The position numbers and the translations under genes are program-made. Below the pieces are notes generated by a model. The model ran no database searches, was not told the origin of the DNA, and worked only from the letters and a program-made list of their open reading frames with translations. A stretch of DNA of 64,000 nucleotides, taken from assembly GCF_008629685.1 (NCBI RefSeq), contig NZ_VWSF01000012.1, forward strand, positions 1 to 64,000. The letters are read 5' to 3'. This document shows positions 34,586 to 42,240 of this stretch, one piece after another (the first letter of the stretch is position 1; every line of letters starts with the position of its first letter). This DNA comes from Adhaeribacter rhizoryzae. Its GTDB lineage: Bacteria; Bacteroidota; Bacteroidia; Cytophagales; Hymenobacteraceae.

Positions 34586-35512
34586 TTAGCCGGTAATATT
34601 GGTGTCGTTAATAATATATAAAGGGCGGTTGCGCACATTGTCGCTGAGGCGGCTAATGTATTCGCCAATAATGCCAATGGAAATGAGCTGCACACCACCC
34701 AGAAACAGCACACTCAGCATCAGCGACGACCAGCCCGGTACATAATCTTTTATTACAAACCGTGAATATAAGGTGTACAGCATTAGTAAAAAGGCAACGC
34801 CCGAAACCAGGAACCCGCTGATGGTGGCAATTTTTAACGGCAGGTTCGAAAAAGAAGTAATCGCATCTAACGCTAGCCTTATCATTTTACGATAGGTGTA
34901 GCTGCTTTCGCCGCCGGCGCGTTCGGGCCGGTCGTATTCCAGGTAAGTCTGACTAAAACCAATCCAGGAAATCTGGCCCCGGATAAATTTATGTTTTTCG
35001 GGCATTTGCTTCAGGGCATCGGCTACTTTGCGGCTGATAATCCGGAAATCGCCGGCATCCAGCGGAATAGAAATATGCGTGATGCGGGCGAGCAACCGGT
35101 AAAAATAGCGGGCCGTAATTTTTTTGGCAGCACTTTCGCCGTTGCGGGCCCGGCGTTTGGTGTATACTACTTCGTAACCTGCCTGCCAACGGGCATATAA
35201 ATCTTTAATTAGTTCGGGCGGGTCCTGCAAATCGCCGTCCATTATTATTACGGCTTGGCCTTGGGCTTTATCGATGCCGGCGCTTACGGCTACCTGGTGG
35301 CCAAAATTGCGACTAAAATCGATATATTTTACCCTTGGTTCTTGCCGGGCCAGTTCCCGAATCAGCGATAAAGACGTATCGGTGCTGCCATCGTTTACAA
35401 AAATAAGTTCGTAATTACCAGTGAGGTTAACCAGTACCTCGCGGAGCCGGCTGTGCAGGGGCAAAATATTAGAGGCTTCGTTATAAACCGGAATAATTAC
35501 GGATATATTCAA
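34586..35512 (-). CDS. Family 2 glycosyltransferase with C-terminal membrane spans (DPM1/GtrB-like)
   Basis: The protein has 308 residues. The GT2 domain has ISVIIPVYNEASNI, FVNDGSTDTSL (nucleotide-sugar binding), IMDGDLQDPPELI (DxD-like metal site) and RGQISWIGFSQ. Two hydrophobic spans follow at about 230-253 and 265-290, then RLSDNVRNRPLYIIND. This is the build of enzymes that transfer a sugar from UDP/GDP-sugar to polyprenyl phosphate at the inner membrane (GtrB, ArnC, DPM1). The acceptor and sugar cannot be told. It is a single gene on the minus strand with the AT-rich cassette region divergent on its 5' side. Confidence 0.93.
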   Translation of the reverse strand: MNISVIIPVYNEASNILPLHSRLREVLVNLTGNYELIFVNDGSTDTSLSLIRELARQEPRVKYIDFSRNFGHQVAVSAGIDKAQGQAVIIMDGDLQDPPELIKDLYARWQAGYEVVYTKRRARNGESAAKKITARYFYRLLARITHISIPLDAGDFRIISRKVADALKQMPEKHKFIRGQISWIGFSQTYLEYDRPERAGGESSYTYRKMIRLALDAITSFSNLPLKIATISGFLVSGVAFLLMLYTLYSRFVIKDYVPGWSSLMLSVLFLGGVQLISIGIIGEYISRLSDNVRNRPLYIINDTNITG

Positions 35513-35861
35513 GGTTAAGCTTTTTAAAACTTAAATATAAAGCTTTTGGGGTAATATTAGGAAACCGGCCTGCCAGATTGCGGCTAATTAGCCGGAGTAG
35601 CTGCTTTTGGCAATAAATATTAATAAGAAGCAGGTGTGGTTTTTTTTAACCGTTGCGCTAAGATGCCGTTGCCACCAACTAACCTGTATAGGGTTGATTT
35701 GCAATAGCATATTTATCAGGGGCCAAAAATGGTTCAAACAGGAAAGCAATATTCTAGCTTTCCTTTTATACTTGTTTATATATATAGTATATTCGTTAGT
35801 TTAGGCGCGTTTATATCTTAGGAAATGGATGGCTAAACGCACCACTTACGTTTATAAACAA
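35513..35861. other. Intergenic region preceding the cassette segment
   Basis: No credible gene; a 65-codon frame (35607-35804) has no family likeness. GGCGCGTTTA (35804-35813) and TAAACGCACC (35834-35843) form a hairpin with one mismatch. I looked for an attI- or attC-like left border to the first cassette here and found no convincing one apart from the GTTAGGG core at 35862. Confidence 0.4.
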
Positions 35862-35886
35862 GTTAGGGCACATTTAAAATAGAAAA

Positions 35887-36348
35887 ATGTTATTAGGAAT
35901 ATTAAACTTGCTTTATTTTAGAACAAAGGAAAGTATGGACCCAATAACTAATAATGAATCCATTAAGTCCAGAGTTTTTAAATTCTTCAAGTTTTATTTC
36001 ATTATCTGCATTGTAATTCCGATTGCATTTTTAATCGGATTTTATATTTATGCTCCCTTTGAATTAGCAGGACTAATTACAGAAATATTCCGGACCATAG
36101 GTTATAAAGGAGTAATCATATTTTATCTGCTACTTTTCTTTTTGACTGAATCTCTATTCAATATAAAACTTGTTACTTTTTTATTTCAAGTTCCAATGGT
36201 ATTAACCCGACCAAGCCTTTTAAGAAAGGAAAGAAGGAAAAAAAGATTAATAGAATTAAAAGAAAACTTGTACGGCTTTCTATATGGAATGATTAGAATT
36301 AGCTTGAAAATGGCTTTAATAATAGCTATAATAGATACAGTAAAATAA
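35887..36348 (+). CDS. AT-rich orphan membrane protein (cassette A)
   Basis: The product has up to 153 residues; an internal ATG at 35935 (MDPITNNESIKSR) is an alternative start. Three hydrophobic segments are visible: about 31-58, 78-103 and 134-150, with a very basic loop (RKERRKKRLIELKENL) between the last two. No family recognised. The gene is much AT-richer than its chromosomal neighbours. The segment begins GTTAGGGCAC at 35862-35871, and 8 bases after the stop codon the exact reverse complement GTGCCCTAAC begins an attC-like site. The 25 bases between core and ATG hold no promoter, typical of integron gene cassettes. Confidence 0.75.
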   Translation: MLLGILNLLYFRTKESMDPITNNESIKSRVFKFFKFYFIICIVIPIAFLIGFYIYAPFELAGLITEIFRTIGYKGVIIFYLLLFFLTESLFNIKLVTFLFQVPMVLTRPSLLRKERRKKRLIELKENLYGFLYGMIRISLKMALIIAIIDTVK

Positions 36349-36355
36349 AAATAAC

Positions 36356-36489
36356 GTGCCCTAACAAAAGCTATACGGCAGCTGGGCTTTATTACGGCTG
36401 TTGCTATATTGCTTTCTGCAAGCGGTCATCCGGTCGACATGTCCTGCGGACTGTCTCCCAGCCGACCGCATAGCCGGGAACCGTTATAC
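36356..36489 (+). other. attC-like recombination site of cassette A
   Basis: R'' core CCCTAAC (36359-36365, within GTGCCCTAAC), 4-base spacer, long stem GCTATACGGCAGCTGGG (36370-36386) pairing with CCCAGCCGACCGCATAGC (36457-36474) with one bulge and a few mismatches, 8-base spacer, and R' core GTTATAC (36483-36489). The length is about 131 bases, like the long VCR-type attC. It is visibly GC-richer than the gene it follows. R' deviates from GTTRRRY at one position. Confidence 0.55.
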
Positions 36490-36508
36490 TAAATTTTAAG
36501 AACAGAAA

Positions 36509-37063
36509 GTGGATTTAGACGACTTTAGTTGGCATCAACAAATAGAGAAAAAAATAGCTCTTAGATTAGGGCTTTCAGACCTAACAGTTGGACCCCAAAT
36601 AATAAGGGATGAAAAAGGTTGGAGAGACAATGAAATTAGAATAAAATATATTTGGATTGCTACTGTAAGTCGCTCTTTTGTTGGAAATGGTGGAGTTTTT
36701 AGTTTAAAGTTCGAAGAAACTTCATTCAGAGAGAAAAGAAATCCGGCACGATTAGTACAAGGAGTATTTATAACAGGACAACAGGCTCAAATACCTCATA
36801 TTTACTTTGAGGAAGAACATAAAAATTTTACAGACAATATTAAAGATTTAAAATCCTGGGACTTATTTGAGCCCAATAATGGAATAGCTCTTGATGGTGT
36901 GTCATATAGGTTTCATGTATTAGCTTTAAATTCAGATGTAACAATTACATTAAATAATCCTCAAAGTGAACCTTGGAAGAAATGGGAAGATAATATTTGG
37001 GACCTGGGGAAGAGACTTTCTGCAAATTCTAAAACACAAGAACTTATCGGACTTTTTGAATAA
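36509..37063 (+). CDS. AT-rich orphan protein (cassette B)
   Basis: The product has 184 residues from GTG 36509 (MDLDDFSWHQQ), 19 bases after the attC-like core GTTATAC. It is soluble, with many Trp and acidic residues, and has no signal peptide. No family recognised. There is no ATG near the start and no recognisable promoter in the short leader, so expression would depend on upstream transcription. The core GTACAAC, 8 bases after the stop codon, is complementary at six of seven positions to the GTTATAC at its own left end, the same own-end complementarity as in cassette A. Confidence 0.7.
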   Translation: MDLDDFSWHQQIEKKIALRLGLSDLTVGPQIIRDEKGWRDNEIRIKYIWIATVSRSFVGNGGVFSLKFEETSFREKRNPARLVQGVFITGQQAQIPHIYFEEEHKNFTDNIKDLKSWDLFEPNNGIALDGVSYRFHVLALNSDVTITLNNPQSEPWKKWEDNIWDLGKRLSANSKTQELIGLFE

Positions 37064-37071
37064 AAAACTTG

Positions 37072-37125
37072 GTACAACACAAGCTAAAAAGCATTAAAAC
37101 GCTTCTTAGCCGCGGCCCGTTAGAC
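37072..37125 (+). other. attC-like recombination site of cassette B
   Basis: R''-like GTACAAC (37072-37078), spacer ACAA, stem GCTAAAAAGC (37083-37092) with GCTTCTTAGC (37101-37110; one central mismatch), spacer CGCGGCCC, and R' core GTTAGAC (37119-37125), an exact GTTRRRY. Total 54 bases, the size of a short attC. Confidence 0.55.
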
Positions 37126-37261
37126 AGCACTTTATAAGCATTGTCTATATTAACCTTCAAATAAAGTACCAGGTACAATTTTATTGGAGCTGGTTTTAGC
37201 GCTTTAAAAATTATTTAGCATAATTGTAAAGATAAATTAAACCTAGCATTAAAAAATCTGC

Positions 37262-37615
37262 ATGGTAGAAAATAATAAAGTTATACTGGAAAAGGCGAAC
37301 GAAGCTATTACTAAGGGTGATAATGAAGGGTTTCTGTTTTTCTGCAACGACGACACCGAATGGACTTTTGTAGGTGACCAGACCTTACACGGGAAGGAAG
37401 CCGTTCGGCGGTATATGGCCACGGCGTACCTGGAACCACCCAAGTTTATGGTTGAAAACTTAATTGCCGAAGGTGATTTTGTTACAGCCCTCGGCAAAAT
37501 CAGTCTAAAGGATAGTAACGGAGAAATGGCTGATTATTCGTACTGTGATGTCTGGCAGTTTCGGGATGGTAAGCTGGCTAAATTAACAGCTTTTGTAATC
37601 AGGATTGATTCTTAG
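37262..37615 (+). CDS. NTF2-like / SnoaL-like protein
   Basis: The protein has 117 residues, the length of a single NTF2-like cone fold. It shows the family pattern: an N-terminal helix (KVILEKANEAITKGDNEGFL), DDTEWTFVGDQTLHGKEAVRRYM, then strands VENLIAEGDFVTALGKISL and SYCDVWQFRDGKLAKLTAF. Such proteins are either small hydrolases/isomerases or simple binding modules; nothing specific can be said. Base composition matches the host genome, so it is probably not a third cassette although it follows the GTTAGAC core by 137 bases, and no GTCTAAC core follows it. Confidence 0.88.
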   Translation: MVENNKVILEKANEAITKGDNEGFLFFCNDDTEWTFVGDQTLHGKEAVRRYMATAYLEPPKFMVENLIAEGDFVTALGKISLKDSNGEMADYSYCDVWQFRDGKLAKLTAFVIRIDS

Positions 37616-37754
37616 GAGAAACCACCAACCTGGCAATAATAACCGGCTGTAATTACCTTTAGTTGTAACTAGCTACGAATTAAATTAACGCCTGGCAAAA
37701 GCTGTGGCGCATACACGCACCGGAGCTTACCCCTTAGTACTAAGCAAAATATAT

Positions 37755-41698: not shown

Positions 41699-41732
41699 TT
41701 AGTTAGGCTGAAGCAAAAATTGAATTAAATTA

Positions 41733-42065
41733 ATGTTGATTCTTATTCTGGAAATAATAATTTCTGTTGCATTGCTATTATATCCGATAACACAAGTCAT
41801 CAGAAGAGGAATCAGACGCAAAGAAAAAATTTCTGGCTCTATAAAATGGGGTTCTATCCTTTCTATAATATTTGGAATATACTTGTGGCTCAAGAATGGC
41901 TTAACTTTAGATTATGGAACAGCAGAAGAGATAATTGAATCCAAAGCCGAGATCATGTTCTACTTTGGGCTATCTAATATAATTCTCGGACTCTTGATAA
42001 TACTGATTTTGGCGATTGGGTGGATTTCTAGAAAAATAACAAAGCCATTGCCCAATAACAGCTAA
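41733..42065 (+). CDS. AT-rich orphan membrane protein (cassette E)
   Basis: The product has 110 residues with three membrane spans: about 2-22, 38-55 and 74-102; a basic RRGIRRKEK loop lies between the first two. No family recognised. It is strikingly AT-rich next to the DUF5686 gene. The segment starts with GTTAGGC at 41702-41708, only three bases after the DUF5686 stop codon, and an attC-like 61-base site follows the gene at 42082-42142. No promoter is visible between the core and the ATG, so it would be read from the upstream gene, as cassettes inserted behind an expressed gene are. Confidence 0.75.
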   Translation: MLILILEIIISVALLLYPITQVIRRGIRRKEKISGSIKWGSILSIIFGIYLWLKNGLTLDYGTAEEIIESKAEIMFYFGLSNIILGLLIILILAIGWISRKITKPLPNNS

Positions 42066-42081
42066 AAAGTATAAAGGCGCC

Positions 42082-42142
42082 TTTTAACAAACTGTTGCCG
42101 GTAACAACCATGAATTTTGTTTAGCTGCAACTTCCGTTAAGC
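42082..42142 (+). other. attC-like recombination site of cassette E
   Basis: R''-like TTTTAAC (42082-42088), 5-base spacer AAACT, L'' GTTGC (42094-42098), L' GCAAC (42127-42131), 4-base spacer TTCC, R' GTTAAGC (42136-42142, exact GTTRRRY). The 61-base total and the spacer/box geometry are those of a classical attC. Weak points: the inner stem is only 5 bp, and R'' is not a clean complement of the GTTAGGC at the cassette start (three extra T in GCC-TTT-TAAC). Confidence 0.45.
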
Positions 42143-42240
42143 TTAATATTTTCTGCAAACAAAAAAGGTAAATATTACTTAACCCAACTTTTTTTACCTA
42201 ACGCCCGTTATATGATTTTTGCCACAGTCGAAACAAAACT

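Follow-up and report, generated by a model that had tools for sequence, protein, structure and literature searches.

A gene cassette array in Adhaeribacter rhizoryzae, probably of a Bacteroidota integron-like system run by a long tyrosine recombinase

The 64,000-nucleotide stretch of DNA analysed here (the window; positions 1 to 64,000 of contig NZ_VWSF01000012.1 of Adhaeribacter rhizoryzae) contains, on its plus strand, a short series of gene segments ending in attC-like sites, an arrangement resembling an integron cassette array. At its head is a decayed attI-like site (35812..35861), whose hairpin TAAACG (35834-35839)/CGTTTA (35849-35854) lies directly 5' of the GTT at 35862 that opens the first cassette. 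Cassette A (35862..36482) starts with GTTAGGGCAC at 35862 and carries a gene for 153 amino acids (35887..36348), a membrane protein by eye, followed by GTGCCCTAAC at 36356-36365, complementary to the 5' end at 10/10 positions; its attC-like site is of a long form (131 nt, 36359..36489) and ends in GTTATAC. Cassette B (36483..37118) starts with that GTTATAC at 36483 and carries a gene for 184 amino acids (36509..37063), followed by the R'' box GTACAAC (37072-37078), with own ends complementary at 3/4 variable positions; its site is of a short form (54 nt, 37072..37125) and ends in GTTAGAC. Neither gene product matched a Pfam family above cut-off. A third cassette (37119..37696) carries a SnoaL-like gene (37262-37615) and has a decayed 3' site, with an R'' remnant at ~37690-37696 and no plus-strand match to a second site model, R2, at its 3' end. 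The original prediction, made from the window sequence alone, had described a two-gene array here: on re-reading, its letters for the segment starts, R'' boxes and site ends, and its coordinates, were all correct, and both cassettes stand, but the decayed third cassette and the attI-like hairpin had been missed.

A lax scan of the 64 kb for segments with complementary own ends (8 nt plus a 5-nt stem) returned 40 and 38 pairs on the two strands, and scanning for own ends in the absence of a site model was rejected as a means of detection, chance matches swamping the signal. Since 8-nt own-end matches are frequent by chance in 64 kb, the same sites were sought elsewhere. Near copies of the site B pattern occur in the same-genus genome G177, where total counts of the pattern were not above those of a reversed control; around these copies, successive segments repeat the own-end rule (GTTGTACCAA...TTGGTACAAC, then GTTGTGTT...AACACAAC). 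A covariance model, R1, was built from 8 aligned sites of G177 only. In the window, R1 scored 57.8 bits (E 8e-14) at site B and 21.9 bits (E 0.0016) at site A, and also matched two sites at 42050-42100 and 42154-42213. Judged by these matches, R1, which was built independently of the window, puts the sites beyond chance. The original prediction had suggested looking for other such sites genome-wide, and these were found: R1 matched in 8/8 genomes of the genus, with a best E per genome of 4.6e-13 to 1.1e-7, and, under stricter filters (E ≤0.001), in 39/390 genomes of the order, Cytophagales. No Rfam family reached its gathering score in the window, with two weak matches only in 35500-37300.

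The R1 sites have attC-type R''/R' boxes (AAC...GTT) around paired L''/L' stems. With the alignment fitted to the model, paired cells make up 92.4% and 75.2% of the inner stems, with compensatory changes, and 158 double-changed cells were counted versus 51.7 after shuffling. Two class 1 integron loci, which together hold 8 annotated resistance cassettes, gave no R1 match, and R1 is therefore no general attC detector; the sequence family of its sites is distinct from class 1 attC. Many sites of the long form (~131 nt), like window site A, were seen in loci of flavobacteria and some others (L175, L168, L207, L215, L167), and one site occurs twice on a single 66-kb contig of G177 (G177:C3:10410 and 45712; L039, L040).

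From 141 pairs of neighbouring sites, 14 were excluded (8 without GTT/AAC, 6 by distance) and 127 were scored, omitting R1 matches that were partial or of higher E-value. Own ends were complementary at 4/4 variable positions in 82/127 pairs, where 2000 shuffles gave 4.4 on average and 12 at most; own-end complementarity, to which the original prediction had drawn attention in the window, is thus a feature of these arrays as it is of integrons. In Rufibacter, about 15 sites stand in succession, with own ends complementary at 4/4 positions in 12/14. The longest open reading frame runs along the array direction in 73/82 of the four-of-four cassettes, so that one-gene, same-direction cassettes are found here as in integrons. 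The 82 cassettes have a mean G+C of 0.34 and a median distance from GTT to the start codon of 27 nt, a short spacing suggesting that the genes are mostly promoterless. Their proteins are diverse; among 69 scanned, no Pfam family was matched by more than one.

Comparison of array loci from different genomes gave 42 matches of at least 250 nt and at least 75% identity between species, and in 4/42 all four edges lie within 2 nt of a site boundary. All four edges are at boundaries for a cassette common to G177 and Rufibacter (92.8% over 640 nt), for one common to G393 and G392 (92.1% over 646 nt), and for two G392 copies compared with one in G393 (83.9% over ~503 nt); a G392-G294 match (92.3%, 517 nt) has a GTT start in both genomes and an R'' end in one. 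Three shared cassettes (L106/L165, L066/L102, L098/L113) take the first place after attI in one genome but follow an attC-like site in the other.

The cassettes of the window also have counterparts, contrary to the original claim that its genes lack homology. The cassette A gene has a relative at 68% protein identity in G294 (L109), where DNA identity is 76.9% over 515 nt; the homology begins at the GTT (GTTAGGGCAC) in both and stops at R'' (8 nt behind it), the site stems and flanks being unrelated. The cassette B gene matches a relative in G204 at 41-46% in two pieces, and this relative (G204:C220) has the identical GGTACAACAC 3' of its stop codon, then CCGTTGTGC. In G342 (L123), the SnoaL gene sits between a GTT-ending hairpin and an attC-like site, and the homology with the window runs from the GTT at 37119 to GCCTGGC (versus GCCTAAC). 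Because this homology begins at GTT, and within a cassette in G342, the window gene is read as a third cassette. Relatives with a precise GTT boundary, another of the checks proposed with the original prediction, were thus found, including cassette A in G294 and the SnoaL gene in G342. An alternative reading of the SnoaL gene as a conserved neighbour of the array was rejected: the gene is itself a cassette in G342, and no other flanking gene of the window stood beside it in the loci compared.

In other genomes, arrays are headed by a tyrosine recombinase of ~485 residues, followed by an attI-like hairpin and then by same-direction cassettes. Such recombinases adjoining R1 sites surfaced among the weaker matches of a search for the integron integrase IntI, and 20 integrase loci were examined, 10 picked for a nearby site and 10 for the integrase alone. 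Among the latter, R1 sites lie behind the integrase in 8/10 (one at E 0.44 only), and the remaining 2/10, near contig ends, have no R1 site. Over all 20 loci, 73/76 R1 matches lie behind the integrase on the same strand, with up to 14 in L148, and the other 3/76 match such sites only in part, on their opposite strand. Also analysed were the best 80 among 588 named-record loci from a protein-only search, and there 40/40 R1 matches (E ≤5) lie on the integrase strand, 39 of them behind the integrase, in 19 loci that are all Bacteroidota by title or genus. Relatives of the recombinase with sites behind them span several Bacteroidota orders. In the genome to which the window belongs, an integrase with an R1 site behind it is encoded on contig C36, and is the nearest candidate integrase to the window array.

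A conserved hairpin ending in GTT was located 126-171 nt behind the integrase stop codon at 11 loci, including that of the window's own genome, the GTT being chosen as the best match within the interval; the first cassette behind it has own ends matching at 8-10 of 10 positions. An attI-like site beside the integrase, as in integrons, is thus found at these 11 integrase loci. The hairpin covaries, with 14 double changes versus 5.1 in shuffled data. The search had excluded L145, L152, L156 and L163, where the script found no integrase motif and to each of which an integrase was later assigned. R3, a model made from the 11 integrase-linked sites, picked up the attI that the best-GTT search had failed to place beside the integrase at L154, L157 and L161. 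Of 26 array loci that had been selected for reasons other than an integrase, R3 matched the array head in 22 (19/26 at E ≤0.01, 3 at E 0.16-0.81) and gave no match in L024, L039, L107 and L115. At E ≤1, each genome of the genus yields 7-18 R3 matches. The window has three, the first and third of which are at the head of the array: 35830-35855 on the minus strand (a palindrome; 18.2 bits, E 0.043) and 35813-35868 on the plus strand (11.6 bits, E 1.2).

Two plasmids, NZ_CP012644.1 (L269, Rufibacter tibetensis) and NZ_CP111080.1 (L270, Pontibacter kalidii), carry the integrase together with attI-like and attC-like sites. Both are typed as mobilizable, and the system is annotated on them as a recombinase and mostly hypothetical proteins. 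R3 matches the head of both plasmid systems, neither of which was in its training set.

Within the family (Hymenobacteraceae), sites were present in 22/26 genomes with the integrase (E ≤~1e-120) versus 3/53 without; as the genomes are related to one another, the p-value of this contrast should not be read at face value. In the genus, the integrase is intact and full-length in G000, G392 and G394, has one internal stop in G390, and is broken in G177 and G391; G294 retains a short integrase piece beside an attI-like site, and G393 has none of this type. As these array-bearing genomes have intact, broken or missing integrases, arrays seem either to outlive the integrase or to be served in trans.

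Alignment of 12 recombinases revealed an invariant tyrosine of the catalytic type and invariant R, K, H, R and H positions, which together we take to be the catalytic residues. Between the second and third conserved patches the recombinase has 22 residues compared with 65 in IntI4, and hence it lacks the IntI-specific insert. The cut-off of TIGR02249, the NCBIfam model for IntI, was passed in 0/390 order genomes (up to 5 candidates scored per genome), so the search for intI proposed with the original prediction gave a negative result. An IntI with its additional domain, by which integrons are defined in the excerpted text of PMC9668308, was not found in the present system. The nearest solved structures by sequence are XerC-like and XerA proteins (4a8e and 5hxy), whose chains, of 292 and 317 residues, are too short for the N-terminal repeats described below; we know of no cassette arrays served by these XerA/XerC-like recombinases.

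A model of the Rufibacter protein was predicted with a mean pLDDT of 79.5 and a pTM of 0.60. It contains two extra N-terminal repeats (residues 5-71 and 107-179), in the predicted order strand-strand-helix-strand-strand-helix-strand. The HARP domain (PF07443) was considered as an assignment for the repeats and not adopted, because the only match, in 1/4 proteins, was sub-threshold (17.8 versus 25 bits) and none was found among 11 further relatives of the recombinase; we retain it as a tentative reading. The HARP domain binds forked DNA, and the sub-threshold match together with the repeats of the model suggests that these may take part in hairpin binding. In a 53-row tree, array-linked members lie inside a largely Bacteroidota group, mixed with members without sites, and 8 changes of the array-linked label are needed; IntI1 stands apart on a long branch, its placement being unsure. 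Four short rows were dropped from the tree, and many of the 80 loci are absent from it because no uninterrupted frame met the motif.

Taken together, these results indicate, with a probability of about 0.86, that the small array in the window consists of mobile gene cassettes belonging to a Bacteroidota integron-like system run by the ~485-residue recombinase. Comparison between loci shows the GTT boundaries, the own-end complementarity, the conserved and covarying site structure, the integrase-attI-array order and the cassettes common to different species. We infer that the recombinase is the catalyst, that it acts on a single strand in folded form, and that the repeats help to bind this strand. 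In the proposed mechanism, the tyrosine recombinase, encoded elsewhere (contig C36), would recognise two partners, the attI hairpin and, on a circular cassette, its folded attC-like site; strand exchange at G/TT would then insert the cassette with its gene along the array direction. Such an integrase, acting in cis or in trans, would at one time have served the window array, of which cassettes A and B and the attI hairpin would survive, the site of the third cassette having decayed.

This system shares with class 1 and chromosomal integrons (IntI, attI, attC) a tyrosine recombinase, an attI-like site, tandem one-gene unidirectional cassettes with complementary own ends and a boundary at GTT, and sites whose paired stems stand inside AAC...GTT. 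It differs in its integrase, which is ~485 residues long, has the N-terminal repeats and lacks the IntI insert, and which reads along the array, whereas IntI1 reads against it in both loci seen. Site sequence also differs, and genus genomes hold many attI-like matches each. By lacking an adjoining integrase, the window array is like a cluster of attC sites lacking integrase (CALIN), a class assigned on at least 2 attC by the IntegronFinder model with no IntI nearby; the window array has 2 attC-like sites by R1, which belong to a different sequence family, and no integrase was detected ahead of it, while an attI-like site stands at 22/26 array loci. The array is most aptly described as integrase-less and as part of a system that functions in the manner of an integron but, under the IntI-domain definition, is not one. 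The originally proposed cassette array in a Bacteroidota chromosome, with no adjoining integrase, is therefore upheld, and its reading as a canonical integron is not.

Several observations weigh against this interpretation. Recombination itself is inferred, none having been observed. The attI-like site of the window scores weakly, though it is placed exactly at the array head, and no significant integrase remnant was found before it. Single-strand folding of the two window sites is weak (z -1.86 and +0.63) and not clearly better than that of shuffled sequences. Because the loci in the own-end count are related, the shuffles overstate their independence, and the rule is less clean in distant loci outside Rufibacter (4/4 in 8/15 neighbouring pairs), perhaps in part because sites in between were missed. 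Between species, 38/42 matches lack the four edges at boundaries; many of them fall within integrase genes or flanking sequence, and others have fewer of their edges on sites. For the family, the genomes counted as without the integrase include five with a weaker integrase match (E ~1e-89 to 1e-95, no sites); regrouped as with the integrase, they change the figures to 22/31 versus 3/48. Across the order the link is weaker, the integrase family (E ≤1e-75) occurring in 30/39 genomes with sites and 140/351 without, which may reflect the training of R1 on one genome or many relatives with other roles.

If the array instead belonged to the canonical integron lineage, its sites would be ordinary attC and an ordinary IntI would have been missed or be present in some members only. 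The layout (R'', stem, R', own ends, unidirectional genes) is the same, and the name of the NCBIfam XerA model mentions integron integrase. Two reviews place Bacteroidota among the phyla with integrons (PMC8618304, PMC2426708), and in PMC9024848 the IntegronFinder authors report earlier finding only In0 in Bacteroidota, then one complete integron in Bacteroidetes proper, in Salinibacter ruber; by these three sources, IntI-bearing integrons exist in Bacteroidota or Bacteroidetes/Chlorobi. The absence of any order genome above the TIGR02249 cut-off, the 22 residues in place of 65, the failure of R1 in both class 1 loci and the separate, if unsurely placed, branch of IntI1 make this explanation quite improbable. 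Movement of the cassettes by host XerC/XerD or a transposase, with the linked recombinase a bystander, would account for the many arrays with no adjoining integrase, and two Xer-like recombinases are encoded in the genome of the window, with Xer-like matches in other genus genomes. It is nevertheless very unlikely, given an integrase-attI-cassette order conserved on one strand at unrelated loci, the co-occurrence of integrase and sites in the family, and the pieces of integrase that adjoin attI-like sites in G294, G177 and G391. That AT-rich orphan genes lie by chance beside unrelated inverted repeats or terminators is compatible with the abundance of 8-nt own-end matches and the weak folding z-scores, and is refuted by the independent model matches, the 82/127 own-end pairs and the homology edges of cassette A.

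Going beyond the favoured interpretation of a cassette array run by the long recombinase, we tentatively propose, at somewhat less than even odds for the proposal as a whole, a second, separately evolved integron. Where IntI has its insert, a XerA-like Bacteroidota recombinase would instead have acquired N-terminal repeats that bind forks or hairpins; a single weak Pfam match, and perhaps the predicted topology, would mark these as HARP-like; they would have conferred the ability to move cassettes through folded attC-like sites; movement would take place between many dispersed attI sites, in trans; the phylum would capture genes by means of this system; and it would be the machinery behind homology-independent gene uptake in Riemerella. 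In the part of PMC13148043 that deals with this uptake, a gene enters the chromosome of Riemerella anatipestifer by transformation without homology, through a mechanism given there as not yet known, and the integrated gene carries 27 bp on its 5' side and 140 bp on its 3' side, the latter folding like attC. The host is likewise of the Bacteroidota, and the corresponding values here are a median GTT-to-start distance of 27 nt and a long site of ~131 nt; unlike in the present system, no integrase is named in that section. By the paper's description alone, as excerpted, the uptake fits cassettes of the present kind.

No description of the system was found in the literature searched, which did not cover preprints, so that an earlier account elsewhere is possible. 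Integrons are held to be rare in Bacteroidota, and the available tools search for IntI and its attC. If our interpretation is true, Bacteroidota have a cassette-capture system of their own, also on plasmids, with many unannotated small genes, and offer a test of how single-strand hairpin recombination arises with other domains replacing the IntI insert; the system may account for the swapping of small genes among Bacteroidota.

Elsewhere in the window, a separate decayed cassette on the plus strand (41702..42100; gene 41733-42065, attC-like site 42050-42100, R1 27.5 bits) matches, at 78.5% over 344 nt, a cassette of G383 (L153) whose array includes an integrase. A further attC-like site (42154..42213, plus strand) scores 22.6 bits with R1 and 23.5 bits with R2, whose training set includes this site itself. 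Relatives of the catalytic part of the integrase (47-53% identity), one of them named TnpF, were seen on many plasmids of Acinetobacter and some of Klebsiella (for example H9-H33 and H90-H94).
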